The notes beneath the pieces were generated by a model, which was given only the letters and a program-made list of their open reading frames with translations, had not been told where the DNA came from and did not search any database. This document shows positions 5,547 through 43,227 of a DNA stretch of 53,266 nucleotides, piece by piece. The stretch covers positions 1 to 53,266 of the forward strand of contig CAMCXK010000010.1 of NCBI GenBank assembly GCA_945883435.1, in the 5' to 3' direction. A program made the position numbers and the translations under genes. Positions within the stretch are counted from its first letter, which is position 1, and every line of letters begins with the position of its first letter. The DNA is from Chthoniobacter flavus. Lineage in GTDB: Bacteria > Verrucomicrobiota > Verrucomicrobiia > Chthoniobacterales > Terrimicrobiaceae.

Positions 5547-5632
5547 GTAGCGGATTTTCGAAGAAAATTCGTAGGCAGGAATCTTCCAACACAAATCTCT
5601 CCATCCTCGAAAATCGTTCCGATTTCCGCTAC
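5547..5632. repeat. REP-like inverted pair, copy 1
   Basis: The left arm starts GTAGCGG and contains the stem-loop ATTTTC-GAA-GAAAAT. The right arm contains AAATCG-TTC-CGATTT and ends CCGCTAC, the reverse complement of the left foot. It lies between two minus-strand genes. The left stem differs from other copies at both paired positions, so pairing is preserved. Confidence 0.8.
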
Positions 5633-21095: not shown

Positions 21096-22903
21096 TGGGA
21101 ATTCTGAGCTTCGGGGTATTTGCAAAGGCCGCGCAGGCGTCCTTCAAAAGTGGCTGGAAGGGCAACTCCAAACGGCCTTTTCCAGATGGTTCCATCCGCG
21201 GCGGCCAGATCGAGTGTGCCGGGCGCAGCAAGGCGAGTGGCTGCATCACCGGTTCGGACGGCTTGGATGGAAACAAGGATGTTCAGCGAAGGACCTTCGA
21301 AACGGGCCTTCAAAAACGGCCGCCCGGGATAGGCGCGTCTTTGACCATTGGCAAAGGTTCTCTGGCTGTCCGGCATTTTTTGCAGGTCGATTTCCACAGG
21401 CCGGTCGAGCAGGAAGGTAGCGGTTAAGAGAGAGCCATCGGGTGCGGTAAGAGTGAAATGGTCACCCTGCACCGAAACCCTCATCTCCGGCGAGAATGTG
21501 AGGCACCAGTTCCAAAAGCGGTCTGTGCGATGGTCGTCCACAATGTCCAAAACGGCCATCTGGGCATCCGCCTTCGGATTCAGGGCCACATACCGCTCGC
21601 TGTAGGCAACATGAACGGGACGCAAATCCATGCCAAAAACCCAATCCGAGGCATGCAGGACAAAACCACAGTGCTTTCCCGTTTTTGAGGAATGATCGGA
21701 GGGCACCAACCGGCTTTGCCATTCCGCGTCTCCACGCGCCTGTCCCCCGCCAAGAATCCAATCCCAACCGAGCGCGGAAAACCGGATCGAGCCGGCATCC
21801 TCTTGCCGGTGGCCACCGGGGCGGTATCCGCACGCATACGATCCGGCAACGGCGTCATGGGCGTCTTGAAAGCGGTTGCGGGCGATCCATAGCCCGTGCA
21901 ACGGGTCGAAAACCGATCGGCGTGGTCCTTGATCCCCTCCATCGCAAACCCCGTAAAAAACAAGATGAAAGAAAAGCGCGCACGAAAACTCATCAACCTC
22001 GCCGTCGGTCCTCAGATGACCGGCCAGCCGATCCCAAAAGTCCCTCAGCGGTCGGCGCTCCGCACCGGGGGCCAGAGCAATGGCAAGGAGCGGGGCGCTG
22101 CCTTGAAGAAATCCCAGTCCCGCATCGTTCCACGAGAGGGTGCGACCGGAGCCGGTGCGGACCCCGGTTTCATCCGAGAGGCAGGGTCCTTCGACGGAAG
22201 CGCAGAAAATGAGCGAGGCCATTCGCTCCAGGCCGGGAGTGGATTTGAGAATGCTCGATCCGTTGCGCAGTTGCCAAAGATGAACCGCCGGCAGCAGGTT
22301 GGCACAGGTGTAGCCCATGTAGCCCAAGCCCTCGTGGTAGGCGCCGCCAGGGCCAAAGTGGCCCAGAAAGGGCGTCAGCCGCTCCCATGTCCATTGCTCG
22401 ATTTCCGCCGCCGTGCGACCCGCCGCACCTCCCCCGTCGACTTCCAAACACTGGCGGGCGCAGGAAAGACAATAAAGGGCCGAGTGGGTCACGGCCCACC
22501 AGTTGTTGGCGACCGAATGAGGGTTTCCCGGGCTGGTCTGAAATAAAGACCCCGTCAGACCATCGATCGCGGAAGCCAGTTTTGCGCGTTGGGCCTCGTT
22601 CAGATCGTCCAGCGTGGAATCTACGAGACATGCCCCGGCGAGGGCGATGTGGGCTTTGCCCAAGTCCTCCAAATTGCGGGCTGATTCCGCCAGCAGACAC
22701 CACTCCTCAACCGCCTTTGCGGCGTTGTCCGGGTCACCCCCCAGCAAAGACCGCAGTGCCTCACGCAAAACCGCGTCCGGTGTGCCATCCTCGGAGCTGC
22801 GGAAAACGCGTTCCCCCAAGGGTCGAATCCAATCCTGACGCGCTTGCCACGCCTCGCGCAGCTGCAGGCGAAGGTCGGAATCCAGCCAGAGACGATTGAT
22901 CAT
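21092..22903 (-). CDS. Cytoplasmic heparinase II/III-like protein
   Basis: The 603-residue protein has no signal peptide. The helical part (about 1-330) contains VANNWWAVTHSAL and GGAYHEGLGYMGY, which match the Asn-Trp and Glu-Gly-x-Gly-Tyr segments of heparinase II/III and oligo-alginate lyase toroids (family resemblance). A later HRQEDAGSIRF segment resembles the catalytic H-x-D-x-G-S of the beta-sandwich. A cytoplasmic location suggests it degrades imported uronic-acid oligosaccharides by beta-elimination (inference). It is the first gene of the leftward operon heparinase-like/GH28/GH4, and its promoter must lie in the 165-bp divergent gap shared with the gene at 23069. Confidence 0.82.
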   Translation of the reverse strand: MINRLWLDSDLRLQLREAWQARQDWIRPLGERVFRSSEDGTPDAVLREALRSLLGGDPDNAAKAVEEWCLLAESARNLEDLGKAHIALAGACLVDSTLDDLNEAQRAKLASAIDGLTGSLFQTSPGNPHSVANNWWAVTHSALYCLSCARQCLEVDGGGAAGRTAAEIEQWTWERLTPFLGHFGPGGAYHEGLGYMGYTCANLLPAVHLWQLRNGSSILKSTPGLERMASLIFCASVEGPCLSDETGVRTGSGRTLSWNDAGLGFLQGSAPLLAIALAPGAERRPLRDFWDRLAGHLRTDGEVDEFSCALFFHLVFYGVCDGGDQGPRRSVFDPLHGLWIARNRFQDAHDAVAGSYACGYRPGGHRQEDAGSIRFSALGWDWILGGGQARGDAEWQSRLVPSDHSSKTGKHCGFVLHASDWVFGMDLRPVHVAYSERYVALNPKADAQMAVLDIVDDHRTDRFWNWCLTFSPEMRVSVQGDHFTLTAPDGSLLTATFLLDRPVEIDLQKMPDSQRTFANGQRRAYPGRPFLKARFEGPSLNILVSIQAVRTGDAATRLAAPGTLDLAAADGTIWKRPFGVALPATFEGRLRGLCKYPEAQNSQ

Positions 22904-23068
22904 GAATGCCGAATCATGAGAGGCCGATGATGGAAAACCAACCCGTATTCACGCCTCGCCGGGGAGCCAAATTGCGTCCCGCAGGCCGCGAAGGCGGACG
23001 CAAAAATGGGCATTGGCGTGGCGTTTCCATGGCTTGGCCAGAAATGGCCGGCGTTTACCCTTGTCCGC

Positions 23069-24538
23069 ATGCGACGCATTCTTTTTTTCATCTGTGCCCT
23101 GCTTTCATCGGCGATTGCCGAGGATGTTGACGTGCAAGTGGACATTCCCGGAGTCCGTTCCGGCGGGAAATTCCGTGCGTCGAACATCACCCGCGATGAG
23201 AACAAGGTTGTTCAGGCCGCCTTTGACGGAACGCTTGAGGATTTGATCCCTTTGAGAAACGGGGGATTTTTAATTGCGGGGACTGATTCAGCCCGTCGGC
23301 CTTTCGTTGCCCGGTTGTCGAGGGACGCACGCACTTTGGAACAACGCCTGGAACTGCCGCCAGAGTTTTTGGATGCCGTTTGCATTGCGGAGGGACCGGA
23401 TGAATCCATCGCTGTAACCGGACGGGATCACAATGAGGGAATTCGCGTCGGGTTGATCTCACCAGGCCTCGAGAAGCTGCAGTGGTCGCGCACGGTTACT
23501 GGAGACCGCCCGGCAAGCGTTGCCGTGGCACCCGATGGTTCGCTGGTGGTTTGTCCGGAACAAAAGCCTTTCGTCTCCCGGATCGCAGCCGACGGCTCCG
23601 GACTGATTCCTTTTGGACAAAACGAGACCTTCCGCACCGACGGGGCGAATGCCGATATTTACAAGGCGTGGTGGGAGGATTGCGGCTTCGCAAAAGCGGG
23701 GCACAGCAGTCCGCGCTACCACGCTGGTGGATGCGCCGGAGTGGTTGCCTTGCCCGACGGGGAGTTTGTGCTTTTCACGACCAATTTCCTCAAGCATCCG
23801 GGAGGACTTCCCGATTTCGACCCGATGCTTCTGCGTTTCAACTCCCAGGGAAAAATCATCTGGTGCACCAATCTCTTGGATGGCTTGCCTGCGGAATCCG
23901 ACCACAAGCAACCCCACATGGTTCTCGATCCCGGCACCGGAGACCTCCTGCTCACCGCCATCCAGCACGGCCATTTCCACCACAACCTCATCGCATCACC
24001 CGGGGCATTCCTCACCCCGCACGAATGGCTCACGGGGGATATCATGATCGGTTGGATTGCGCGGGTCGATCCCGCCACCGGACGGCCCAAAGCAGCCACC
24101 TTCTACTTTCCCGAATTGTCCGGACAACTCGTCGGGGGCAAAAAACGCGCCAACTCGCTTTTTCCTGCAAAGCCGGCCTTGGATGCAGAGGGGAATTTTT
24201 ATGTCACCGGCAAATCGGCCTGGAAACTTCCCACGACGCTTCACGCATTCCAAACGGAGCCGCTGGGTGGCAGCGGGTTTCTCTCGGTCTTCAATCCCGA
24301 TCTCACCCGGCTTCTCCACTCGAGCCTCATCACCGCAAAGGGATTCACCATGGCTGGCAAGGCTGTAGCCATCGCTTCCGGCGGGCCTGTGGTTCTGGGA
24401 TCCTACGAGACCGATAAACCTGCGGAAGCTGACTTTGTGTCCTCCAACGCGGACGCCACGAATTTCCTTCTGGAAAAGCCAGCCGCTCCGAAAGGCGGAT
24501 TTTTCGGGATTTATCCGTCCGGAAACTGGTTTGAATAA
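23069..24538 (+). CDS. Secreted beta-propeller-like protein (paralogue of the BNR protein at 6266-9070)
   Basis: I choose the ATG at 23069 since it starts a good signal peptide (MRRILFFICALLSSAIA); the longer frame adds 21 unlikely residues. The 489-residue product consists of repeated beta-strand blades such as GGFLIAGTD, PDESIAVTGRD and PDGSLVVCPEQ, typical of a PQQ-like or SBBP-like beta-propeller. It matches the outer parts of the protein encoded at 6266-9070 but lacks the Asp-box insertion. It is 13 bp upstream of the GH29 gene, so it leads the long rightward operon. It may bind the polymer outside the inner membrane; no catalytic residues are recognised. Confidence 0.75.
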   Translation: MRRILFFICALLSSAIAEDVDVQVDIPGVRSGGKFRASNITRDENKVVQAAFDGTLEDLIPLRNGGFLIAGTDSARRPFVARLSRDARTLEQRLELPPEFLDAVCIAEGPDESIAVTGRDHNEGIRVGLISPGLEKLQWSRTVTGDRPASVAVAPDGSLVVCPEQKPFVSRIAADGSGLIPFGQNETFRTDGANADIYKAWWEDCGFAKAGHSSPRYHAGGCAGVVALPDGEFVLFTTNFLKHPGGLPDFDPMLLRFNSQGKIIWCTNLLDGLPAESDHKQPHMVLDPGTGDLLLTAIQHGHFHHNLIASPGAFLTPHEWLTGDIMIGWIARVDPATGRPKAATFYFPELSGQLVGGKKRANSLFPAKPALDAEGNFYVTGKSAWKLPTTLHAFQTEPLGGSGFLSVFNPDLTRLLHSSLITAKGFTMAGKAVAIASGGPVVLGSYETDKPAEADFVSSNADATNFLLEKPAAPKGGFFGIYPSGNWFE

Positions 24539-28693: not shown

Positions 28694-30111
28694 TGAACCA
28701 CCTCATCACCGACCACGGCGCAGTGCCTTCCCGCACCGTAAACAATGCGAACGCAATTCAATCTGCCATCGACGCGGCGTCCGCCCAAGGCGGCGGCACG
28801 GTGGTGGTGCCGGCAGGCCAGAGCTTCATGACGGGTTCCGTCGTTCTCAAATCGCGCGTGCGCTTGCATCTCGAGCACGGCGCAACCCTTCTCGCCTCGC
28901 CGGATATTGCCGACTATGTCAACTACGAGCATCTCGAGCTTTTCCGGAAATCCGACTTCTGCAGGTTCTGGATTTTTGCCCACGAGGCGGCGGATGTCAC
29001 AATCGACGGAACCGGCACGCTGGACGGGAACTCGGAGGCCTTCATCACGGAACGCCTTGAGACCCACACCAAAGCCAGAAACCCGCGCGCCCAGTCGGTT
29101 GTTTTTCTGGGATGCCAGGATGTCGTGATGCGCGATATCCGGATTGTGAACGCTCCCTCATGGGCGGTGCGACCGGCCGGCTGCGACCGTGTTTTGATTG
29201 AGGGAATCACGATTCTGAACGACCTCGGACTGGTCAATTCGGATGGAATCGACATCGATTGCTCCCGCTCGGTCCGCGTGGCAAACTGCCACATCGAATC
29301 GGGAGACGACGCGGTCTCGGTGAAAGGACGGAGGGAAATCGCCGCGCGCTACGGAGCCTGCGAAGACATCGTGATCACGGGCTGCACTTTGGAGTCGCAT
29401 TGTTGCGCCTTCCGCCTCGGTTGCGAATCCTTCGTGGATTTCCGGCGTATTGTTTTTTCGAATTCGACCATCCGCCGTTCCCACCGCGGCATTGCGATCG
29501 ATTGCCGGGACGAGGCGGTGATCGAAGACATCCTGATTTCAAACATTGCCGTTGAGACAATGCACAGCCCGCGCATCTGGTGGCACGAAGGGGAGCCAAT
29601 CTGGATTTGCCAAGTTCCCTATGTGCCCGGCCACTACGGGGATGACAGCCGGGTCGCCCGGTTGCGCAACATTGTCTTTCGCGACATCGCCATTTCCTCC
29701 GAGCAGGGCATCCACATTCAAGGAGCGGACGGTGAAGCCCATCCCTCGGACATTCTTTTTGAAAATGTCTCCCTGCACCTGCGGAAACGAACGGCCCATC
29801 CCGTGGGATTCGCCGACCCCCGCCCGAACAGGCCGGGTTTCATCGTGGCCGGAAACACGGGTGTCGAAGAAGAGACGCCTTGGGGTTCCCTCTTCCGGCA
29901 TCCGGTGTCCGCCTGGCTGCTCGACCGCACCAACGATATCACCCTGCGAAATTGCCGCGTTGTCTGGGCCGAGGGCATGCCTTCCGCCTACGCCCACGCA
30001 CTGGAGGCCCACGATTCGCCGGGCCTTGTTCTTCAAAACTTCCAAGGCGAGGCTGCACATCCGGGAATGCCAGCGATCTCGATAAACGGCCCCGCTCCCG
30101 TGGTGGTCTGA
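28693..30111 (+). CDS. GH28-like beta-helix glycosidase, copy B
   Basis: The ATG at 28693 overlaps the lacZ-like stop as TAATG, which settles the start (MNHLITDHGAV). The 472-residue protein has the GH28 N-cap and the Asp residues of NSDGID (Asp184) and SGDDAVSV (Asp205-Asp206). In place of the usual Gly-His-Gly the segment reads SHCCAFRLG (235-243), and the RIK-type site reads RGIAID. These match the changes in the other two GH28-like proteins here. It is cytoplasmic and probably removes a uronic acid or similar acidic sugar from imported oligosaccharides (inference). The GH20 gene follows after 11 bp. Confidence 0.86.
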
Positions 30112-30122
30112 TTTTTCATTCT

Positions 30123-31751
30123 ATGCCCTGCATTCTTCCCGAACCCCGCCGGATAACTTTCAAAGAAGGAAACTGGCGCAAGAGTCATCTCAGCCACTTT
30201 TCGCGAGATGTGCGCATTGGCATTCATGCCCCAGTGGGATGGCGGGGGCCGGTCTCCTGGTTGCAAAAGGGCTTGGAGCACGAGCAAATGTTCCGCGTGG
30301 AGGATGTGAGCCCGGAAGAGGCTGATATTGTCTTTGAAAAGCGCCTTCCCTCGGGATCGCTGTCAGGTCCGAAAGATGACTTGCTCATGCTGGGATTCCA
30401 AAACGAGGCGTATCGCATCGAAGTCACACCGGACCGCATTTTGATCGCCGCCGCATCCGCGCACGGCGCATCCCGGGCGGTTGCCAGCCTGCGGCAAATG
30501 CTTTCCGGGCAGCGGGCGCGCTTGGAGTTGCCCTGCTTCGTGCTGGAGGATGAACCCTCGTTTGCATGGCGCGGCATGCACTTCGATTGCAGCCGACATT
30601 TTTGGTGTGTGGACGATGTCTTGCGCTTCATCGATCTGGCTGCCTTGCACAAATTCAATGTGTTCCATTGGCACCTCACCGACGACCAGGGCTGGCGGCT
30701 TCCCGTTGAGGGCTATCCGCGCCTGAGCGACTGCGCCGCGTGGCGTGACGGGACGATGGTTGGCCATGATTGCGACCGTGCGACAAATCCCCAGGATGGC
30801 ATCCGGCACGGTGGTTTCTACTCTCACGAAGACATCCGCCGCGTGGTGGCGCATGCGGAAGCAAGGGGCATGCATGTGTTGCCCGAGATCGATGTGCCCG
30901 GCCATGTTCAGGCCCTGCTCACGGCCTATCCGGAGTTTGGCAACACCGGCCTGGCCCCCGGAGTGCGGACCTGCTGGGGCATCAGCCCGCACACGCTGAA
31001 TCTGGAGCCGCAGACATTTGAGTTTCTGGAGCGGGTGGTGGACACCTTGGCCGAGCTCTTTCCGTTTCCCCTTGTCCACCTCGGCGGCGATGAGGCCAAA
31101 ACCGGCGAATGGATGGAATCCCCGCGCATCCCGGAACGAATGGCCGAGCTCGGCATTCCCGATGTTTTGGGCATTCAACCGTTCTTCACGCAGCGCTTGG
31201 TGGAAATGCTCGCCCACCACGGCCGACGGATGGTCGGCTGGGACGAGATTATCGAAGGCAAGGCGCCGGATGCCTCGGCAGTTGTCATGTATTGGCGGGA
31301 TAGTGAAAAAAACGACCACGCTTTGGACCGCAAAGCCCTTGAATGCAGGAACGGGCTTGTTCTGGCGAATTGGTCGAAGACCTACTTCGACCTTTACCAA
31401 GAGGCCGGCCCGGGGCGCGATTTCGAGCCACTGGCGATCTGCGGATGCCTGACACTCGAGGATGTCTATCGCTGGAATCCCCTCGCCCGCTATCCGGAGG
31501 CGCTGGCAACCGGTGTGTGGGGAGCGCAAGCACAGGTCTGGACCGAATACATTCCGAACAGGCCGCACTTGGACTACATGGTCTATCCACGGGCTTGCGC
31601 CCTGTCCCAAGTCCTCTGGCGCGGCGCGGATCGCGAGGATTTTCCGCATTTTTTGAGCCGCTTGGAACGGCATCTTCCCCTGCTCGACCGTCTCGGCGTG
31701 GCCTACCGGCCTTCATTTCCACCCCCTCCGGACAACACTTCCCAACCATGA
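30123..31751 (+). CDS. GH20 beta-N-acetylhexosaminidase
   Basis: I choose the ATG at 30123, after the previous stop; the longer frame lies inside the GH28-like gene. The 542-residue protein has the GH20b-like N-terminal domain (about 5-145) and the catalytic barrel with FHWHLTDDQGWRLP (181-194), LPEIDVPGH and the catalytic Asp323-Glu324 pair in HLGGDEAKTGEW (seen). GH20 enzymes remove terminal beta-GlcNAc or beta-GalNAc by substrate-assisted catalysis (family knowledge). The glycan therefore probably contains N-acetylhexosamine. No signal peptide is visible. Its stop overlaps the esterase start as ATGA. Confidence 0.93.
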   Translation: MPCILPEPRRITFKEGNWRKSHLSHFSRDVRIGIHAPVGWRGPVSWLQKGLEHEQMFRVEDVSPEEADIVFEKRLPSGSLSGPKDDLLMLGFQNEAYRIEVTPDRILIAAASAHGASRAVASLRQMLSGQRARLELPCFVLEDEPSFAWRGMHFDCSRHFWCVDDVLRFIDLAALHKFNVFHWHLTDDQGWRLPVEGYPRLSDCAAWRDGTMVGHDCDRATNPQDGIRHGGFYSHEDIRRVVAHAEARGMHVLPEIDVPGHVQALLTAYPEFGNTGLAPGVRTCWGISPHTLNLEPQTFEFLERVVDTLAELFPFPLVHLGGDEAKTGEWMESPRIPERMAELGIPDVLGIQPFFTQRLVEMLAHHGRRMVGWDEIIEGKAPDASAVVMYWRDSEKNDHALDRKALECRNGLVLANWSKTYFDLYQEAGPGRDFEPLAICGCLTLEDVYRWNPLARYPEALATGVWGAQAQVWTEYIPNRPHLDYMVYPRACALSQVLWRGADREDFPHFLSRLERHLPLLDRLGVAYRPSFPPPPDNTSQP

Positions 31752-32386
31752 TGAAACTTCTCTTTCAAGGCGACAGCATCACCGACTGCGGTCGCGACAA
31801 ATCCTCGGATTTCGAACCGGACCGCTCTCCCGGCGCGCACCTCGGAGCCGGCTATCCGCTTTTAATTGCGTCCAGACTATTGGCCGACCAACCATTCGGC
31901 AGCCTTTCAGTAGCGAATCTCGGCGTCGGCGGCAACCGGATCGTCGATCTCGCGGCGCGCGCCCAAGAGCATGTGTGGAACCTCCAGCCCACCCATCTTT
32001 CCATTCTGATCGGGGTGAACGACACCTGGCACACATTCAAAAGATGCGCAGGGGTTGATTTGGCGCGTTTCGAACGGGTTTATCGAAACCTTCTCATCGA
32101 CACACAGCACCGTGTTGAAGGGGTCCGATTTATCCTTTGCGAACCTTTCGTTCTGCCTTGTGGAGTGGTAACTCCCGATTGGACCGGGGATATCGACCAA
32201 CGCCGTGCGATCGTGCAGAACCTAGCGACCGAGTTCGACGCCGTTTTCGTGGCTTTTCAATCCGTCTTTCACGCGGCACTGGATCGTGCGCCCGCTGAAT
32301 TCTGGGCTCCCGACGGCGTGCATCCCTCACCCGCCGGACACCGTCTCATGGCCGATGAATGGATGCGCCAAGTCTCCCTGCCATGA
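31748..32386 (+). CDS. SGNH/GDSL-type carbohydrate esterase
   Basis: The start at 31748 gives an ATGA overlap with the GH20 stop. The 212-residue protein has all four SGNH blocks: Ser10 in FQGDSITD, Gly in NLGVGGNRI, Asn in GVND, and Asp189/His192 in PDGVHPS (seen). Relatives include rhamnogalacturonan acetylesterase and other carbohydrate O-deacylases (family knowledge). It is cytoplasmic here, so it probably removes acetyl or similar groups from imported oligosaccharides before the glycosidases can act (inference). It is coupled to GH28-like copy C through a 4-bp overlap. Confidence 0.9.
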   Translation: MMKLLFQGDSITDCGRDKSSDFEPDRSPGAHLGAGYPLLIASRLLADQPFGSLSVANLGVGGNRIVDLAARAQEHVWNLQPTHLSILIGVNDTWHTFKRCAGVDLARFERVYRNLLIDTQHRVEGVRFILCEPFVLPCGVVTPDWTGDIDQRRAIVQNLATEFDAVFVAFQSVFHAALDRAPAEFWAPDGVHPSPAGHRLMADEWMRQVSLP

Positions 32387-33672
32387 AAACATTCTCGATT
32401 ATCGATTTCGGCGCAGTGGCGGATGGATTGACGAATGACGCGGGCGCGATCCAACGGGCCATCGACTCCGCGCACGCCTCGGGAGGCGGAAGGGTCTTGG
32501 TGCCGGCGAACACCACGGTGATGGCCGGATCGTTTGAACTCCGCTCGGGCATCGACTTCCACATCGCCGAGGGGGCCGTTCTGCGCAGCGCCACGCGCAT
32601 CGAAGACTTTCCGGGACTAGTCTTCGGTTCCGGCGAAGAAGCCGACAAGCGATTCTGGATCGGGGCGAAACACGGCCACGACATCACGCTTTCTGGAACG
32701 GGAACCATTGACGGGCAGTGCCGTGCGTTCGCGCTCGGCGAGGAGGAACATATTTTCCGACCCACCCTTCCCTGGCGTCCAGCCATGACCTGTTTCGAGG
32801 ACATCAAGCGCATCACCGTGCGGGACCTCACACTCCGCGACTCGGCCAATTGGACCCTGCACTTCACCGGTTGCCGCGATGTTCACGCTCATGATTTGCG
32901 CATTTTCAACAATCTGAAATTTCCGAATGCGGACGGCATTGATCCCGACCACTGCCAGCGTGTGCGGATCGAGCGCTGCCATATCGTGGCGGCGGACGAC
33001 TGCATCGTTTTAAAAAACACCGCCCCCTACTCCCAATACGGCCCCTGCGAGGATGTGGAGGTTTCCGACTGCCGTCTCGAGAGTGTCTCTTCGGCTTTTA
33101 AAATCGGCTCGGAATCGCATGGCGACTTTCGCCGAATCGTCGTGCGCGATTGCGTGGTGGAGCGCAGCAACAGGGGCCTGGCCATCCAACTCCGTGACAC
33201 CGGAACGGTTGAGGATGTTGTTTTCCGCAACATCAAAATCTTCACCCGCCGTTTTGCGCCGGTCTTCTGGGGGGCGGGAGAGCCGATCTATGTGACTGCA
33301 GTCCCCCGCACCCATGAGACGCTTGGGAAGACCATCCGGGACATTCGCTTTGAAAATGTAACCTGCGATTCCGAGAACGGCGTCTTTTTGTATTCCCATC
33401 CGGCCGGGCGCATTTCCGGGCTCGTTTTTGAAAATGTCACCCTGACGCTCCGCGAATCCGCGCGGTGGCAAGACGGCCTTGTGGATATACGCCCCTGCCC
33501 GGGCGATTTGGTGCCGGAGGGTTGCGAAGCCTATGGCGAGCAGACGCCATGGGGGCGCCCGGCGCGGCATCCTGTTCAGCGGGTTTTCCTCCAAGGTGTC
33601 GACTCCTCTTCGGTTGCAGGACTTTCGCTTTTGCAAGGACCCGATAGCGATACCGAACCAGACACTCCATGA
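32383..33672 (+). CDS. GH28-like beta-helix glycosidase, copy C
   Basis: The ATG at 32383 is fixed by its ATGA overlap with the esterase stop and by the fold start (MKTFSIIDFGAV). The 429-residue protein has NADGIDPD and AADDCIVLKN, giving the conserved GH28 Asp residues. The catalytic His is missing (SVSSAFKIGSES), and the RIK site reads RGLAIQL. It therefore shares the altered active-site signature of copies A and B. No signal peptide is seen. Its stop overlaps the start of the MFS gene, so substrate import and this step are co-translated. Confidence 0.86.
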   Translation: MKTFSIIDFGAVADGLTNDAGAIQRAIDSAHASGGGRVLVPANTTVMAGSFELRSGIDFHIAEGAVLRSATRIEDFPGLVFGSGEEADKRFWIGAKHGHDITLSGTGTIDGQCRAFALGEEEHIFRPTLPWRPAMTCFEDIKRITVRDLTLRDSANWTLHFTGCRDVHAHDLRIFNNLKFPNADGIDPDHCQRVRIERCHIVAADDCIVLKNTAPYSQYGPCEDVEVSDCRLESVSSAFKIGSESHGDFRRIVVRDCVVERSNRGLAIQLRDTGTVEDVVFRNIKIFTRRFAPVFWGAGEPIYVTAVPRTHETLGKTIRDIRFENVTCDSENGVFLYSHPAGRISGLVFENVTLTLRESARWQDGLVDIRPCPGDLVPEGCEAYGEQTPWGRPARHPVQRVFLQGVDSSSVAGLSLLQGPDSDTEPDTP

Positions 33673-36632
33673 TCGTTACCGCAAAGTCCTCCATTCCGAC
33701 TCTCTGGCAATGGATCGTTGCGTGCACATGGGGTGCTTTGCGGTTCAAGTTCATGGTGATGGGGGCGGTCTTTGTCTTCTCGCTTCAGAAGTTCATCGAA
33801 AACCCCGCAGCGGTCACATTCATCCTGAGCCTGCCAACAATCCTGTCCTTGGTAATTGGGCCGGTTTGCCGGTTTCTCTCCGACCGGATTTGGACCCGAT
33901 TCGGGCGACGCAAGCCGTTCGCCATCCCCTCCATGCTCGGGATCGGGGTTTCGTTCCTCTTGATGCCGATGGCCCCGAGTTTCTGGTGGCTCGTGGCGGC
34001 GTATTGCCTCTACCACATCGCCAACGATTTCGGGTCCGGGCCGACAGATATTTTGAAGCAAGAAATCGTGCCTCCGCCGCAGCGGGGCAGAGCATCGGCA
34101 CTGGCTTCGTGGATCGGCAACCTCGCCAGCCTTGCCTTTTATGGATTGGCTTTGGGCCGATTCGAGGATGTCGACTTTTTTGCCGGATTTCCCGTGAGCG
34201 GAGAGCAGGCGATCTACTGGGGGATCGCGGCCATGGTTTTTTGTGCCGCGGCATTCGTCGTGCTTGGCGTCAAAGAGTCCCCTCAAGAGAGCCCGCTGCG
34301 AGGCCAGCGCTTGACCTTCAAAACCTTCGTTGGAGGGCTTTCCGACCGGAATCTCTGGCCGGTTTATCTTTTGATCGTCGGATGGACGGTTTCCGGAGCG
34401 GGGCTGGGAGCTCTGACAGCCCTCCTCTACAGCGAGCAATGGGGTTTCAGCAAACAGGAGATGGGAATCAACATCGCCGTGGGTGGCGTTCTTAACATCC
34501 TCTTCATTGCCCTGCTCGGCATCTTTGCGGACCGGTTGCCACGCATGCGCACCTTCAAAATCCTGTTGACCCTGTCGATCGTCATTGAGGCCGCTTTTTT
34601 TTGCTACTGCGAATTCGTCCTCCACGACAAAACGCCCACCCTTCCGGAAATCATCCTGTTTGGAGAAATCACATCGGTGATCGGCATCCTGCTCGGAATG
34701 GTCTATTTCCCGATGGTCTACGATTACATTCCCCGCAACGAGATGGGCACTTTCTCGGCGGGATCCTCGATCGTGGAAAAGATCATCGGCGTGGTGACAC
34801 TCAACGGCGTCGGTCTTTTCGTCTCTCTTTACTCCCAGCTCTTCCTCCCACCCGCAGGCGACATGATACGGATCGGGTTTCCGCAACGGGTGACCGAGGC
34901 GGAGGCCCGGCAATGGCTGGCTGAATTGTCTCCGGCTGGTGTCTCCATCGCAGCCTGGCATTCCAATGGCGCGGCGCTCGACCACGGCCAAGCGTTGGAA
35001 TTCCGGCGGGAGAGTGCCGAGTCGACTGCAGCGAACACGCGTCTCGCCGCCATCGATGCGCGATTGAAATCCCTCCGGGAAGAAGCCTCCGGCGAGGAGG
35101 AAATTCAGAGTCTTGAAACGGAGAAGAAAACCCTGCAAGAGCAAATCAAGTCCTCAGCGCGGGAATTCGCCTCCCTGCTGGCACCGGTCTACCTCCATGC
35201 AATTGCGGAGGGTCATCAAATCCAGGCCGTGCGGTCCGGGAACGCAATGGTGTTCGATATCCCCCTCGCCATGCGACCATCGAATGCCGATGTCGAGGCA
35301 GCCCTCCGATCGTTGCGGCGGGCTCATCCGGAGGTGGTCGATCTGCGCTTGGGGTCCTCCGAAAAGGGATTTTACCTGACCTGCGGGCTGACCGGAGACA
35401 ACCCCGACTCACCGGTCGCCGTCTTCTCCCGTCTGGCAACTATTGCTCCACCTCCCCTTCAGCGCCTTTTGCCGGCATCGCTGCCAGCAGGGTCCGCCAA
35501 ACTTTCCGCATTTGTGGAGATCGATGTGGCCACAGCCGGCGATCCTGTGAATCGCCACCCCTCGCCTGTCACCCGCCTCATCAATCGCATCTGGGCGTTC
35601 TTTGGCGAACCGCCCGCGCCGGATCGCAGGCTGGATGCGGTGGCGAGAGAAATACGGCAAGCCGGCGCCTGGCCCCATGTGCGCGGAACCGACATCTCAA
35701 CTTCCGGCCACCATGCCCTGCGAATCACCGCGCTCCCGGATCGACATGGCATAGCTGCCCAAGATCCCGACCCTCAAATCTTCGCCCGCTGCGCGGAATT
35801 CCCGGGCATCGATCCCGCCCTTGCCGCAGCTCTTTACCAAAGGCTGGAGAGCGTCGGCCCCAACCACCGCATCACACCAGTCCAGCGCACCTTGGCCTCC
35901 GACTACGCGCCGCTGCGCTACGATTACCTGAGCGGTTATCTGTGGATGGTCTTCATGAGTTCCGTCGGACTCGCCATCTGCCTGGCCTTCACCCGCCGGG
36001 AGGAAAGAGGCCTGATTCGCAAACGCGGACTGGAGGAAAACGAACGCCAGTTGGAAGCCGAGGCCCAGGAATCGGAGCGGGAGCGGCAGGGGGCGCGGGA
36101 TGCCCATGAATACTATGTTCCCGGCCATCTTCGCTGGAAAATCACCTTTCTCATCGTGTCTCTGGCAATCCTTGGCGCCGGTCTTTGGATGCTTGTTCCC
36201 AAGCTGGCGGTCGCCACTTCCGGTTCGCTCGTCCAAGCGCGGGTGGAGGCGATTACCTACCAAGATGGGAATGAGATGGTTTTCGAGTCGGCGACCGCCG
36301 TTCGCGAATTCCTCGCAGAGGGCAAAAAAGACGGCATTTTCCGTTTGAGGTGTGTGGCGGAAATGCCGGATGGATCGGTGGTGCGGTTCACACCCTCGAA
36401 TGCCCAAACCCGGAAGCCTCTGGTGGACCTTGTGGACAAGGACGGACTGCCCTCAACGGTTATGGCATACCTTCTGCCTGGGACTCCAACCACAGCCATC
36501 CTTCCGTTCGAAATCGGCACGTGGTTCATGCCGGGGTTGGTCACATTTTTGGGTGCCACCGCCACGATTCTGGCAGCGCTTCTCCTCGGATCCGCGCGGC
36601 GCCCGATTGCGCTGCCTCTGTCGCAGTCCTGA
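33669..36632 (+). CDS. Giant MFS (GPH-like) sugar transporter with large extracytoplasmic insertion and C-terminal membrane module
   Basis: The start overlaps the GH28-like stop as ATGA. The 987-residue protein begins with an MFS/GPH-like core (about 11 helices, residues 13-392), including the loop RFLSDRIWTRFGRRKPF. Residues 393-752 form a long hydrophilic stretch with a coiled coil near 450-500. Helix 12 follows (about 753-775), then a charged linker (776-820), a further helix (823-848), a beta-rich segment (849-950) resembling DUF3592, and a last helix (951-975). Charged residues at 776-820 fit a cytoplasmic linker, so the big insertion is predicted to face outside. Ordinary MFS sugar carriers have about 450 residues (family knowledge). 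It is the only transporter in the window and probably imports the glycan fragments. Confidence 0.85.
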   Translation: MIVTAKSSIPTLWQWIVACTWGALRFKFMVMGAVFVFSLQKFIENPAAVTFILSLPTILSLVIGPVCRFLSDRIWTRFGRRKPFAIPSMLGIGVSFLLMPMAPSFWWLVAAYCLYHIANDFGSGPTDILKQEIVPPPQRGRASALASWIGNLASLAFYGLALGRFEDVDFFAGFPVSGEQAIYWGIAAMVFCAAAFVVLGVKESPQESPLRGQRLTFKTFVGGLSDRNLWPVYLLIVGWTVSGAGLGALTALLYSEQWGFSKQEMGINIAVGGVLNILFIALLGIFADRLPRMRTFKILLTLSIVIEAAFFCYCEFVLHDKTPTLPEIILFGEITSVIGILLGMVYFPMVYDYIPRNEMGTFSAGSSIVEKIIGVVTLNGVGLFVSLYSQLFLPPAGDMIRIGFPQRVTEAEARQWLAELSPAGVSIAAWHSNGAALDHGQALEFRRESAESTAANTRLAAIDARLKSLREEASGEEEIQSLETEKKTLQEQIKSSAREFASLLAPVYLHAIAEGHQIQAVRSGNAMVFDIPLAMRPSNADVEAALRSLRRAHPEVVDLRLGSSEKGFYLTCGLTGDNPDSPVAVFSRLATIAPPPLQRLLPASLPAGSAKLSAFVEIDVATAGDPVNRHPSPVTRLINRIWAFFGEPPAPDRRLDAVAREIRQAGAWPHVRGTDISTSGHHALRITALPDRHGIAAQDPDPQIFARCAEFPGIDPALAAALYQRLESVGPNHRITPVQRTLASDYAPLRYDYLSGYLWMVFMSSVGLAICLAFTRREERGLIRKRGLEENERQLEAEAQESERERQGARDAHEYYVPGHLRWKITFLIVSLAILGAGLWMLVPKLAVATSGSLVQARVEAITYQDGNEMVFESATAVREFLAEGKKDGIFRLRCVAEMPDGSVVRFTPSNAQTRKPLVDLVDKDGLPSTVMAYLLPGTPTTAILPFEIGTWFMPGLVTFLGATATILAALLLGSARRPIALPLSQS

Positions 36633-36988: not shown

Positions 36989-38578
36989 ATGCGGTGGAGG
37001 ATGAAATCCGATGCCGCGCGCACCATTCCGACACTTTTCCACTACGAGCCACCCACCTGCGTGAAGGAAACAACCCGCGAGGTGGATGTTCTTGTTTATG
37101 GGGGGACATCGGCTGGCGTCACGGCGGCGGTGCACCTGTGCCGGCAGGGGCGGAGCGTGGTGATTGCCAATCCTTCACGGGAAGTCGGCGGCTTGAGCAC
37201 CTCGGGACTGGGTTTCACCGATGTCGGAAACAAGCATGCGATCGGCGGGTTGGCCGCCACATTCTATCAGGCGGTCGGCAAACACTACGGCATCGATTGG
37301 AAGGCCCAATTCGAACCCCATGTGGCCTCCAAAGTTTTCAAACAACTCCTCTCCAACGCCGGGGTGGAGGTGCTCCCGATGGAATTTCTTCTGGGTGTGG
37401 AATCCGAGGATGGTCGTCTCGTCTCGGCCACTTTTGAGTCCGGCCTGACGGTTCGTGCCCGCCAATTCATTGATGCCACCTACGAGGGCGATCTGGCTGC
37501 GATGGCTGGAGTCACGATGCATGTCGGCCGCGAATCCAATGCGGAATTCGGCGAAACGAGAAACGGTGTGCAGTGCGGCCCCCACCACCAGTTTTCGATG
37601 CCAGTCGACCCCTACGTTTTGCCGGGCGTTCCCTCGAGCGGACTTCTTCCTGGAATCGAACCCGGCCCGCTTCCCGCCACCGGCTCCGCTGACCACCGTG
37701 TTCAAGCCTACAACTTCCGCATGTGCATGACGGATTCGGCGTCGAACAGGAGACCGTTTCCCGTTCCCGCCACCTACGATCCCCTGCGCTACGAACTGCT
37801 GGCCCGCGTTCTCGAAAGTGGCTGGCCGGAGTTCTTCAAAAAATTCGACCGCATCCCGAACGGAAAAACCGACACCAACAATCACGGACCGGTCTCAAGC
37901 GATTTCATCGGGGGGAGCCACTTCTGGCCACGGGCCTCCCACGCGCAACGCGAGGCGCTTTTCCAGGCCCATGTGGACTGGCAGGCCGGTCTTTACCATT
38001 TTCTCAACACCAGTCCTCGAATCCCGAAGGAACTGCGCGAGGCATTCGCGGCGTGGGGCCTCGCGGCGGATGAATTCCCGGAAACCGGTGGCTGGCCCCA
38101 CCAACTCTACATCCGCGAGGGACGGCGGATGCGCGGCGCCTTCGTGATGACCGAAAACCACTGCACCAATTCCCATCCTGTGGACGATCCCGCCGGACTA
38201 GGTGCCTACCAGATGGACTCCCACAACTGCCGCCGTTTCGCGAGGGATGGGCGGGTTTTCAATGAAGGCGATGTGCAGGCCCGCCTGGAGGGGCCGTATG
38301 GCATCTCCTATCGGGCTTTGGTTCCCCGGAAAGGAGAGTGTTCCAATTTACTGGTGCCCTGCGCCCTCTCGGCCACGCATATCGCCTTTGGATCGCTGCG
38401 TATGGAGCCGGTCTTCATGGTTCTTGGTCAAAGTTGCGCCATTGCCGCCGATCTCTTGTTGGAAAGCCAGACGCCCGCCTGCGAACTCCCCTACGCCGAT
38501 CTGCGGCCCGCGCTTCTCGAGGCCGGACAAATCCTCCACACCGAGCATCGCGTGAAAAGTTTCCAATTCGGAGAGTAG
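36989..38578 (+). CDS. FAD-dependent oxidoreductase (FAD_oxidored/xanthan lyase-associated type)
   Basis: The 529-residue protein has an N-terminal FAD-binding motif, VLVYGGTSAGVTAAVHLCRQG, near residue 34, then VGGLSTSGLGFTDVG and a FIDATYEGDLAAMAG segment typical of the FAD_oxidored family found in polysaccharide loci (family knowledge). The C-terminal GQSCAIAADL resembles the second FAD-contacting segment. An alternative ATG at 37001 has GGAGG directly before it. There is no signal peptide. The reaction is unknown; it may oxidise a sugar or uronate released by the upstream enzymes. It follows the transporter after two REP pairs and may be in the same transcript or have its own promoter. 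Confidence 0.85.
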   Translation: MRWRMKSDAARTIPTLFHYEPPTCVKETTREVDVLVYGGTSAGVTAAVHLCRQGRSVVIANPSREVGGLSTSGLGFTDVGNKHAIGGLAATFYQAVGKHYGIDWKAQFEPHVASKVFKQLLSNAGVEVLPMEFLLGVESEDGRLVSATFESGLTVRARQFIDATYEGDLAAMAGVTMHVGRESNAEFGETRNGVQCGPHHQFSMPVDPYVLPGVPSSGLLPGIEPGPLPATGSADHRVQAYNFRMCMTDSASNRRPFPVPATYDPLRYELLARVLESGWPEFFKKFDRIPNGKTDTNNHGPVSSDFIGGSHFWPRASHAQREALFQAHVDWQAGLYHFLNTSPRIPKELREAFAAWGLAADEFPETGGWPHQLYIREGRRMRGAFVMTENHCTNSHPVDDPAGLGAYQMDSHNCRRFARDGRVFNEGDVQARLEGPYGISYRALVPRKGECSNLLVPCALSATHIAFGSLRMEPVFMVLGQSCAIAADLLLESQTPACELPYADLRPALLEAGQILHTEHRVKSFQFGE

Positions 38579-38670: not shown

Positions 38671-39846
38671 CTATGATCTCCGCTCGCGAGTGGGCCCCGG
38701 GGGCTTCACGCTGCGGCGGTAGTCGCTGGGTGACATTCCGACATCACGGGCGAAGATGGAACTGAGCATTTTGGCATCTGTAAATCCGGCCGCCTCGGCG
38801 ACTTCGGGCATCAGCAGAGATGTCTGGGCGAGCAACCGTTTGGCGATGCCGACACGCACTCTCAGAATCTCCTGCTTGGGACTGAGCCCGAGAATACTGT
38901 TGAAACGACGCTCGAGATAGCGGCGCGAAGCCCCACTAGCCTTCACCACATCGCCGACACTGATTGGTTTAACCGCGTTCGTGGCGATAAACCGCATTGC
39001 ACGCGCGATTGTGGGGTCTTGAATGGCAACAATATCCGTCGAGCGGCGAGTCACGATTCCCGAAGGGGCCAAGCGCACCGTGGCAAACTCGGGAGTTTTT
39101 CCTTCCAGAAGCAAATCCACCATCGCCGCCGCCTCAAATCCCAATTGCCGCAGCGGAAAGGACACGCTGGAGATCGGCGTGGGTGAGAACTCGCACTCGA
39201 TCTCGTCGTTGTCGCAGCCCAAAACCGCAATTTCGTCGGGCACCAGGATATTCAGCCTCCGGCATTCGTTCAGCACGCGTCGGGCTTGGTCGTCCCCGTG
39301 GGCAAAAACCGCACAGGGCCGAGGCAAGGATTGCAACCACTCACCGATTTCGGGTAGCGGATCCATCGAATCACGCGGCCATTTGCCATGACCGAAATTC
39401 AGGCTGAAACACTCGTAACCCGCGGTCCGCACCACCTCTTCGAACCCGTGATGACGCAACTTGGAAAACGCAAAATCATCGCACCCCGAATACGCGAAAT
39501 TCGTGAATTTTTTTTGAATAAAATACTCCGCCGCCATGCGACCGGCCGCCACATTGTCCGGAAGGACACGCGCCGTGCCGATCCCCTGCTTTTTTTCCGA
39601 GACATTCACTACGGGAATGTTCCGCCGCATCATATTCCGAACAAATGCTTCGTCCGCAAACATTCCCAGCGCAGCACACGCTTTGGCCTCAACAGGAAAC
39701 TTCCACCCCGCCGACCCAATGCCACCCGTGATGTAGGTCCATGGATGGGACTTGTGCACATACTCGAAAACCCCAAAAAGAACTTCCCGGCTGTAGTGCA
39801 TCTGTGCCGAAAAAGACAATGCTACATAGGGCGGCGGTTTGTTCAT
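38671..39846 (-). CDS. XylR-like transcriptional regulator (LacI-type sensor plus AraC-type HTH)
   Basis: I choose the ATG at 39846, which starts MNKPPPYVALSFS and leads straight into the sensor domain; a longer frame adds 18 unlikely residues. The 391-residue protein has a periplasmic-binding-protein-like sensor (about 8-275), including GCDNDEIECEFSPTPISSVSFP as in LacI-type regulators, and an AraC-type double HTH at the C-terminus (about 285-385) with the typical FARDVGMSPSDYRR ending. Such XylR-type proteins activate sugar genes in response to a bound sugar (family knowledge). It is divergent from the Ig-repeat protein gene at 40081 and probably controls it and perhaps the adjacent operon. 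Confidence 0.9.
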   Translation of the reverse strand: MNKPPPYVALSFSAQMHYSREVLFGVFEYVHKSHPWTYITGGIGSAGWKFPVEAKACAALGMFADEAFVRNMMRRNIPVVNVSEKKQGIGTARVLPDNVAAGRMAAEYFIQKKFTNFAYSGCDDFAFSKLRHHGFEEVVRTAGYECFSLNFGHGKWPRDSMDPLPEIGEWLQSLPRPCAVFAHGDDQARRVLNECRRLNILVPDEIAVLGCDNDEIECEFSPTPISSVSFPLRQLGFEAAAMVDLLLEGKTPEFATVRLAPSGIVTRRSTDIVAIQDPTIARAMRFIATNAVKPISVGDVVKASGASRRYLERRFNSILGLSPKQEILRVRVGIAKRLLAQTSLLMPEVAEAAGFTDAKMLSSIFARDVGMSPSDYRRSVKPPGPTRERRS

Positions 39847-39925
39847 CGAATGAAAAATTAAGACGTAAAAATGGAAATTCAACCCCATTTTTTGCGTCAC
39901 AGAGACTCAAGAATATGCCAGTGGA

Positions 39926-40080: not shown

Positions 40081-43000
40081 ATGAAAGAAACGAGGAGCTG
40101 GTTTTTCAACGGTTCAAAACTTCAAGACACGGCGATTTCGAGCTCCCGCGGGAGGCCGCGCGTCTTGGGGATCGCACTGACGGCGGTTTGGATGATGGCG
40201 ACGGGCGTGATGGCACAATCGCGTCCGGTGGTGACGAGTTCCGCCACGGCGCAAGGGAAAGTTCACGCTTTTTTCAAACATCAGGTGTCGGCGTCGAACG
40301 CTCCCACCCGTTTCTCCGCCATGGGCCTTCCGGGCGGGCTTTCCATCAACGCCCAATCCGGCTTGATTCAAGGAACCATTCTCGGCAGGGATGGACTCTA
40401 CAACGCCACGGTCACGGCCTCAAACGCCGCAGGAGGCGGAGTTCAAAAATTGGCGCTGACCGTGTTGCCGGAACTCCCGGTCATCAACAGTAAACTCAAA
40501 GCCTCCGGCAGGACGGGGCAGGCGTTCCTTTATCAAACGACCGCCTTGAAATTTCCACGTTCCTTCTCCGCCAGTGGGCTGCCCTCCGGTCTTGGAATGA
40601 ATGCCAGCACGGGATTGATCTCGGGTGTTCCGACCAGCGCGGGCAATGCCACTGTCACGCTTCGTGCGATCAATGGCGCCGGCGCCGCCACCCAATTGCT
40701 CCAGATCTTGATTGCCCCGCCTCCGCCTGTGGTAACAAGCGCCGCCACGGCGCAGGGGAAGGTCCAAACTTCCTTCAGACACCAAATCACAGCCTCGAAC
40801 ACGCCCACGAAATTCACGGCCACCGGCTTGCCCGGCGGGCTTTCCATCAATGCCACGAGCGGGCTCATTCAAGGCACCGTGACCGGCCGGGATGGACTTT
40901 ACAGCGCGTCGATCTCGGCAATAAACGCGGGTGGCAGCGGGGTTCAAAAGCTGGCCATCACCATCACCGCCTCGACTCCCGTGGTTTCAAGCAGCGGATC
41001 GGCGGTCGGGAAAGTCGGTCAATCCTTTCTCTACCGGGCCACGGCCTTGAATTTCCCGCTCTCCTTTGCGGCAAGCGGGCTCCCGGCCGGACTGACAATC
41101 GATACCGCCAGCGGTGTCATCTCAGGCATTCCCACAGCGATCGACGGGATTTACAATGCCACCCTCACAGCGACGAACGCAGGCGGCAGCGGCACCAAAA
41201 ATCTCGCGATCACAATCGCCCCCGCGCTTCCCGTTATCACCAGCGGGGGGGACGCCACAGCATGGACAGGTCAATTTTTCCGCTATCAAATCGCGGCCAC
41301 AAATTTCCCGCGCACATTCACAGCATCCGGTCTTCCCGCCGGCCTCACCCTCAACGCCACGACAGGCCTTCTCTCTGGAATCGCTCAATCATCCGGAAAC
41401 ACCACGATCACTCTCTTGGCACGGAATGGCGCTGGAGCCGCCTCTCTGCCTTTGCGATTGTCGGTTCGACCGCCCGCACTGGCAATCACCACCACTTCAC
41501 TCCCCGCCGGGCAAACGGGAACGCCCTTTGCAAACACGTTTTTCACGGCCACCGGAGGCTCTGGAAACCTTTCATGGAGCCTGAGCGAGGGATTTCTGCC
41601 AAAGGGAATGAATCTGAACGCCACATCGGGGCTGCTTTCGGGAACGCCCGCGCAATCCGGAGTTCACACGTTTGCGGTCAGGGTCGCCGACGCTGTTGGC
41701 CAGCTGGACGAATTGGAGGTGGTGCTGGCGGTCGATGATCCAGCGGCCGGCACGGTGGTCAGCGATGTTTTATCGGCTCTGCCTGCCGGCAGCCCGCTTA
41801 CCCAATCGGCCGGCAATGCTACCTGCAACTTCCAGTATCAATCCAGTGGTTCGACATGGATTGCCGAAGCCAACGAGGAACAGGTCTTTCTCGCCTCGGT
41901 CACAAGTTCCAGCGGGTGGCGTCTCGGCATTGGCAAGGGCGGCCAGATTTATTCGCTCAGAGGACCGTTCGGCGAAACCGTGCCGCCCCAGCGCGCCGAT
42001 GCCCGCTGGGTGGACGAAGCGTGGCAATTTGTGGCCACCAACACGGATTTGGTAACCCCGGTGCACGAATTTCAAAGCACCGGTGCGGCGGCGCGCCGGC
42101 TCGCCTATCCCATCCAATTCTTCATTCACCAATCCGGAATCTACCAAGGGGAACTGACCGGCAACAGTATCGTCGGATCGCCCACGGCTCCACTGTATTC
42201 GCCCGTATTGAAAAAACGCTGGAACCCCGACACCCGGACCCTTTCGGTCGTGAATTGGTCCCAGATGGCGCGCAGCCCGAATGTCTGGAAGTCGGGCCTG
42301 CTTACCTACGCATCCTATCGGGACCTGGGAAACGGGGCGATCGAGGTCACCAACTTCGTCACCAATTTTGGCGATCAAGACCTGAATTTCTTCAACACCC
42401 CGTGGGGCGGCGCACGGCCGTCCACCTTGCCGGAGACAATCCTTTCGAGCAGCAACGGGACTTGGACCATCGCTCCAACCGGGTTGTATGGCTCCAACAC
42501 GCCCCTGCATTTGAGAAACACCGGCGGTTGGCAGGCTTGGGTTCAAAATGCCTCGCAAGAGCAGAGCGGCGCGATGGCGGTGGTTTTTGGAAACCACACA
42601 CTGCCCGGTGTGTCGGCCCAGGAGTGGAGCGGTTTCCGGAGATTCCTGACCTACGGATTGACCCACCCCGGGCGCGACTACGCGGTGTCCTCGATTCAAA
42701 ACTCCATCCGCCTCCAGCCCGGCCAGTCCCTGGCATGTCGCTGGCACTTGGTGTTGGGGCCGTTTGGAGAAACGCGAACCAAAGCCTCCGCACTGGCCGT
42801 TCATGCCGGATTGTGGTTTCCGGAGACCGATGCGGCCGCCCTCGCCACCGTTTGGACGACCGGTGGTATTCCTTCCGGGCTCGGGACAGGAACACCGGAT
42901 TTGCATCTCTTTGCACAACCCCTTCCGGGAGCCGTGCCCGTTTTTTCCATGGAAGACACGCGCACCGGCCGCGTCTTTGCGACTTTTGACCCTTACGAGT

Positions 43001-43227
43001 TGTGCCCGACAGCCCCCTATCCCAATCCCCTGCCGGCATCCCACCCGCAGTATGCCCTGTATCAAAACCGGGTGGTTTACTATCAATACAGCAGCCCCGG
43101 GGTGTTGAAGGAACTGTTAGGCTACGCCTTCCCCACTCAGCCACCGCTGGAAAGACACATCCGGGTCTCCCTGCCGGGCGCCAACGGTTCTCTTTTCCTC
43201 TGGGTCCCGGCCCCAACCGTCCGATGA
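40081..43227 (+). CDS. Large secreted protein with six Ig-like (He_PIG) repeats and an unknown C-terminal domain
   Basis: The 1048-residue protein has a signal peptide whose hydrophobic core is RVLGIALTAVWMMATGVMA, cut near residue 46. Six repeats of about 82 residues follow (from about 48 to 550), each with a GLPxGLxxNxxxGxxxG core as in He_PIG or putative-Ig domains (seen). Repeats 1, 3 and 4 resemble one another, as do 2 and 5. Residues ~560-1048 form a beta-rich domain that I do not recognise; it contains WNPDTRTLSVVNWSQMARS and VEVTNFVTNFGDQDLNFF-like segments. Ig-like repeats usually act as spacers or adhesive stalks (family knowledge). The C-terminal part could bind or cut the glycan. 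It is divergent from the XylR-like regulator. Confidence 0.8.
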   Translation: MKETRSWFFNGSKLQDTAISSSRGRPRVLGIALTAVWMMATGVMAQSRPVVTSSATAQGKVHAFFKHQVSASNAPTRFSAMGLPGGLSINAQSGLIQGTILGRDGLYNATVTASNAAGGGVQKLALTVLPELPVINSKLKASGRTGQAFLYQTTALKFPRSFSASGLPSGLGMNASTGLISGVPTSAGNATVTLRAINGAGAATQLLQILIAPPPPVVTSAATAQGKVQTSFRHQITASNTPTKFTATGLPGGLSINATSGLIQGTVTGRDGLYSASISAINAGGSGVQKLAITITASTPVVSSSGSAVGKVGQSFLYRATALNFPLSFAASGLPAGLTIDTASGVISGIPTAIDGIYNATLTATNAGGSGTKNLAITIAPALPVITSGGDATAWTGQFFRYQIAATNFPRTFTASGLPAGLTLNATTGLLSGIAQSSGNTTITLLARNGAGAASLPLRLSVRPPALAITTTSLPAGQTGTPFANTFFTATGGSGNLSWSLSEGFLPKGMNLNATSGLLSGTPAQSGVHTFAVRVADAVGQLDELEVVLAVDDPAAGTVVSDVLSALPAGSPLTQSAGNATCNFQYQSSGSTWIAEANEEQVFLASVTSSSGWRLGIGKGGQIYSLRGPFGETVPPQRADARWVDEAWQFVATNTDLVTPVHEFQSTGAAARRLAYPIQFFIHQSGIYQGELTGNSIVGSPTAPLYSPVLKKRWNPDTRTLSVVNWSQMARSPNVWKSGLLTYASYRDLGNGAIEVTNFVTNFGDQDLNFFNTPWGGARPSTLPETILSSSNGTWTIAPTGLYGSNTPLHLRNTGGWQAWVQNASQEQSGAMAVVFGNHTLPGVSAQEWSGFRRFLTYGLTHPGRDYAVSSIQNSIRLQPGQSLACRWHLVLGPFGETRTKASALAVHAGLWFPETDAAALATVWTTGGIPSGLGTGTPDLHLFAQPLPGAVPVFSMEDTRTGRVFATFDPYELCPTAPYPNPLPASHPQYALYQNRVVYYQYSSPGVLKELLGYAFPTQPPLERHIRVSLPGANGSLFLWVPAPTVR

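Follow-up and report, generated by a model that had tools for sequence, protein, structure and literature searches.

A Major Facilitator Superfamily Carrier with a Folded Insert between Helices 11 and 12 and a Fused or Separately Encoded Accessory Membrane Module Recurs in Verrucomicrobiota and Planctomycetota

Results

Gene neighborhood of the carrier

The DNA analyzed here (the window) is a 53,266-nucleotide stretch of a Chthoniobacter flavus assembly. It carries a glycan cluster with genes for GH2, two GH28, GH20, GDSL, GH95, and sulfatase proteins and for sugar-type regulators. On the forward strand, one GH28 gene (28777..30111), a GH20 gene (29943..31751), a GDSL/SGNH hydrolase gene (31733..32386), and the other GH28 gene (32359..33672) precede an ORF (33669..36632, forward strand) that encodes a putative carrier of 987 amino acids. 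The stop of the adjoining GH28 gene overlaps the carrier start by ATGA (33669–33672), making translational coupling likely and agreeing with the first-pass annotation, in which the carrier was coupled to a glycosidase gene. Downstream of the carrier lie an FAD-dependent oxidoreductase gene (36989..38578, forward strand) and a gene for a regulator with a sugar-binding domain and an AraC-type domain (38671..39900, reverse strand). No hydrophobic signal-like N terminus was found in the GH28 protein encoded next to the carrier, suggesting that this enzyme is probably cytoplasmic and that the carrier probably imports its substrate.

Several other features of the window were observed. A 1048-amino acid protein with six putative Ig (He_PIG) domains is encoded beside the glycan cluster (40081–43227, forward strand), and three long ORFs within the cluster (15505–18171, forward; 21092–22903, reverse; 23006–24538, forward), which are putative genes, had no Pfam match at an E value of 1e-5. 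A 25-base intergenic repeat, GTAGCGGAATTTCGAAGAAATTTCG, occurs in five copies (at 5547, 5647, 36656, 36778, and 38641, forward strand) versus 0 expected. A 20-base core of this repeat was counted 11 times in the genome, solely on contigs C8 and C10, and was absent from 15 congeneric genomes. Such confinement could mean that these contigs are mis-binned or that they belong to a plasmid or a genomic island. A foreign composition of the contig was not supported, since its tetranucleotide distance, checked on stretches, was within the range of the other contigs.

Reading frame, MFS core, and topology

The carrier frame is uninterrupted from the ATG at 33669 to the stop codon at 36632, as had been proposed. 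The same layout recurs in many independent assemblies, and an assembly or frameshift artifact was therefore rejected. In a Pfam search of the whole ORF, MFS_1 (E 7.3e-20; 71.6 bits against a gathering cut-off of 33.4) and MFS_2 (E 5.1e-17; 62 bits against 27) matched across residues 30 to 386, and no significant match was found past residue 386. The AlphaFold model of the whole carrier, built from a 38-row alignment of carriers and separate partner genes, had a mean pLDDT of 89.9 and a pTM of 0.87 and contained the 12 core helices. Helices 1 to 11 of this GPH-like core correspond to residues 1 to 392 (33669..34844), and helix 12, which aligned with helix 12 of insert-less relatives, corresponds to residues 753 to 779 (35925..36005). 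The 360 residues between them (393–752; 34845..35924) form the insert. Helix 12 is followed by a charged, mostly helical cytoplasmic linker (residues 780–820, helical at 786–806; 36006..36128) and by an added membrane module. The layout of core, insert, and module described in the first-pass annotation was thus borne out by Pfam and AlphaFold.

In standard MFS topology, the RxGRR motif marks the loop between helices 2 and 3 as cytoplasmic, and the loop between helices 11 and 12 is then periplasmic. This motif is present at residues 77 to 81, and among 34 carriers, R80 and R81 were invariant and R77 was present in 30. Both the insert and the beta domain of the C-terminal module are thereby assigned to the periplasm.

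The best PDB fold for the full model was that of the melibiose carrier MelB (7l16; Foldseek E 5.8e-8), and the best sequence-profile match was the plant sucrose carrier SUC1 (E 1.8e-6). MelB, SUC1, and SLC45 (the GPH/MFS_2 group) share with the window carrier the 12-helix core, the RxGRR motif in loop 2–3, and a glycan context, but they lack both a fused TM-beta-TM module and a large periplasmic domain in loop 11–12. An extension at the same position is found in mycobacterial Rv1410, in which extensions of helices 11 and 12 protrude about 20 Å into the periplasm and guide lipids, and which hands triacylglycerol to the lipoprotein LprG (PMC10576003). The two systems resemble each other in this periplasmic extension and in having an operon partner, and by this precedent the window carrier might move a lipid or export a product instead of importing sugar. 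However, the Rv1410 extension is helical, reaches only about 20 Å, and serves a lipid substrate (PMC10576003), whereas the window core is closest to MelB and SUC1 and the carriers sit in glycosidase clusters, making lipid transport or export very unlikely.

Structure and divergence of the insert

The insert was modeled as a folded alpha/beta domain within the carrier, and when modeled alone, it gave a pLDDT of 93.2 and a pTM of 0.89. This confident fold, together with the MFS topology, indicates that the insert is neither disordered nor cytoplasmic, in agreement with the earlier proposal that it faces outside. When the insert was searched alone against profile databases, as had been suggested, no Pfam family scored above its cut-off, and the few matches among the inserts of 25 relatives were scattered and weak. 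A PDB sequence search with the insert returned coiled-coil-type noise only. Foldseek gave weak matches to aspartokinases, at their tandem ACT domains (best E 7.6e-5, TM about 0.2), and VIA-align gave single ferredoxin-like domains, the best with a Z of 8.2 over 78 residues that covered insert residues 132–222 only. No other fold was prominent in these lists, in which the insert outside residues 132 to 222 was barely covered. We read the insert as a tandem series of ferredoxin/ACT-like plaits, the first of which carries a coiled-coil hairpin (residues 450–503, with model helices at 450–472 and 476–503; 35016..35177, forward strand). An origin of the three plait-like units by internal repetition was unsupported by profile-profile comparison. 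Planctomycete inserts are shorter (289 amino acids) and have no coiled-coil hairpin.

Furthermore, the insert and the core differ in conservation. The core contains about 40 residues that are nearly invariant across the family, and in the insert few positions are conserved, some of them at the junction with the core. In seven close pairs, dN in the insert was about 3.7 to 20 times that in the core, and dN was lower than dS throughout. In the L002/L046 pair, for which both carriers adjoin a GH130-like gene, dN was 0.101 in the insert versus 0.005 in the core. These values indicate that the insert is under purifying selection yet changes fast.

The first-pass annotation had held that such a carrier could catch a large oligosaccharide directly. 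The insert would then be a tethered receptor that binds the glycan in the periplasm and passes it to the core. Its periplasmic orientation, good folding, and location in a glycan cluster fit such a role, and ACT-like plaits often bind small ligands. However, no solute-binding or carbohydrate-binding module fold appeared in the Foldseek and VIA-align lists, absence from which is not decisive; hardly any insert residue is conserved among members; and the seven close pairs show the fast divergence described above. We therefore consider direct capture unlikely, and the claim was left unsupported. Sharing a fold with ferredoxin/ACT domains does not by itself show function.

The C-terminal module is a fused accessory subunit

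The module (36129..36590, forward strand) was modeled as TM13 (residues 821–851; 36129–36221), a periplasmic beta domain (853–935 in the model; 36222–36512), and TM14 (949–974 in the model; 36513–36590). In most relatives, the carrier ends past helix 12 and is followed by a separate gene of about 175 to 230 amino acids, often with a 4-base overlap, which is homologous to the module of the window carrier. A module profile search found the TM-beta-TM module with 27 of the 28 insert-bearing carriers, fused in five (the window carrier, L003, L031, L041, and L042) and directly downstream in 22; the remaining carrier, L061, is truncated by the end of its contig. Since the partner accompanies nearly all insert-bearing carriers, mostly as its own gene, the added membrane module is best described as a fused accessory subunit. 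No second copy of it was found in the window genome.

In the tree, the fused carriers fall into two branches that are separated by unfused members, as expected for interacting subunits; this arrangement requires either two or more fusions or a single fusion that was later split. The distances of insert and partner correlated after the core's were removed (partial r 0.48; 0 of 2000 permutations), a value that shared history and saturation can inflate. DUF3592 proteins (PF12158), which are of unknown function, have a similar TM-beta-TM layout. The DUF3592-like character noted in the first pass was retained in part: six of 22 homologous modules matched PF12158 weakly (best E 1.9e-4), and the window's own module had no match. 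By sequence, the accessory module may thus be called DUF3592-like only weakly.

Distribution of the family and an insert-less sister clade

To date, 28 distinct insert-bearing carriers have been found in Verrucomicrobiota and Planctomycetota. Among 58 related genomes searched, three from the same family had full-length relatives and the same order yielded an insert-less one, and the carrier was found in 0 of 15 other genomes of the genus. At the order level, insert-bearing carriers were present in 6 of 213 genomes. At the class level, 24 of 384 genomes matched, 14 at full length and 10 by short and weak matches mostly to the coiled-coil part; the full-length matches all fell within frames of 801 to 1068 amino acids, and no free-standing insert was found. 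When about 85,000 species genomes were scanned, 34 loci emerged, all from Verrucomicrobiota or Planctomycetota where the record names a phylum. The distribution is patchy.

The insert-less relatives (L005, L048–L050, and L052) form a well supported clade, in which a few residues join helix 11 to helix 12. Their downstream gene encodes 334 to 408 amino acids with the same TM-beta-TM plan, enlarged by roughly 150 residues in the region separating the two TMs; it looks as though extracytoplasmic mass had been shifted from the carrier to the partner. The tree is compatible with either gain or loss of the insert.

With regard to gene context, the carriers of relatives adjoin genes for GH130, GH29, GH2, and esterases, and this variety suggests that the presence of the insert does not depend on one particular sugar. 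Apart from the accessory module, no constant periplasmic partner was seen among these neighbors.

Discussion

No published description of this carrier family was found in the open-access literature, and it is apparently an undescribed, recurring family of PVC-group carriers. The first-pass annotation had known of no described example, which stands for published characterization; within its clade, the layout is common.

The closest precedents each share part of the architecture. The ectodomain of the carriers PepT1 and PepT2 lies between helices 9 and 10. It consists of two Ig-like folds and binds trypsin (PMC4597091). These POT-family MFS carriers resemble the window carrier in that the late part of the core is interrupted by a large, folded domain outside the cytoplasm, but the folds are Ig-like and occupy another loop, unlike the ferredoxin/ACT-like plaits at loop 11–12. 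MFSD1 forms a tight complex with the accessory subunit GLMP (PMC11252000), and here, too, the partner of the MFS carrier is a membrane protein with an extracytoplasmic domain; MFSD1 is, however, a eukaryotic lysosomal dipeptide uniporter with a separate partner gene and no insert. None of PepT1/PepT2, Rv1410, and MFSD1 combines the domain, position, and partner of the window carrier.

The PepT1/PepT2 precedent raises the idea that a periplasmic enzyme or an envelope component docks onto the insert, with the coiled-coil hairpin reaching outward. The hairpin of verrucomicrobial inserts and the fast evolution of the insert, which fits species-specific partners, are consistent with this idea. However, the hairpin is missing from planctomycete inserts, and the neighbors reveal no constant periplasmic partner except the accessory module, making a docking platform of this kind fairly unlikely.

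We give a slight preference, at little better than even, to a two-part sugar importer in which the ectodomain, together with the accessory subunit, would build a cap or docking assembly on the periplasmic side. The importer reading is favored because the nearest folds and profiles of the core are sugar carriers, the gene lies in a glycan cluster, the adjoining GH28 is signal-less, and the neighboring enzymes of relatives vary. The architecture, confident fold, family, constant partner, fusion, and glycan-gene context are computed observations. From these, the carrier would be an inner-membrane importer with a GPH-like MFS core, presumably cation-driven, that supplies the cytoplasmic glycosidases of its own cluster; we infer its sugar or oligosaccharide substrate from the gene neighbors only. 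It would belong to a PVC-group family whose members work with an accessory subunit made of two TMs flanking a periplasmic beta domain; in the window carrier, this subunit is fused to the C terminus. The insert and the accessory beta domain may contact each other to form a cap that stabilizes, gates, or docks something onto the carrier, and the insert itself would not define the sugar. A sensing or binding role for the insert may also be considered. In its fullest form, which we regard as fairly improbable, the ACT-like ectodomain and its dedicated subunit would sense or capture glycan and control the carrier, so that receptor-like parts would be integrated into a secondary carrier.

How complex sugars pass the inner membrane of PVC-group bacteria is poorly known, and a clade is now defined in which a folded periplasmic domain is built into the MFS carrier and an accessory subunit is dedicated to it, in some cases as part of the same chain. 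The natural fusions are ready single-chain constructs for structural and transport work, and the insert-less sister clade provides a natural comparison for the role of the ectodomain.
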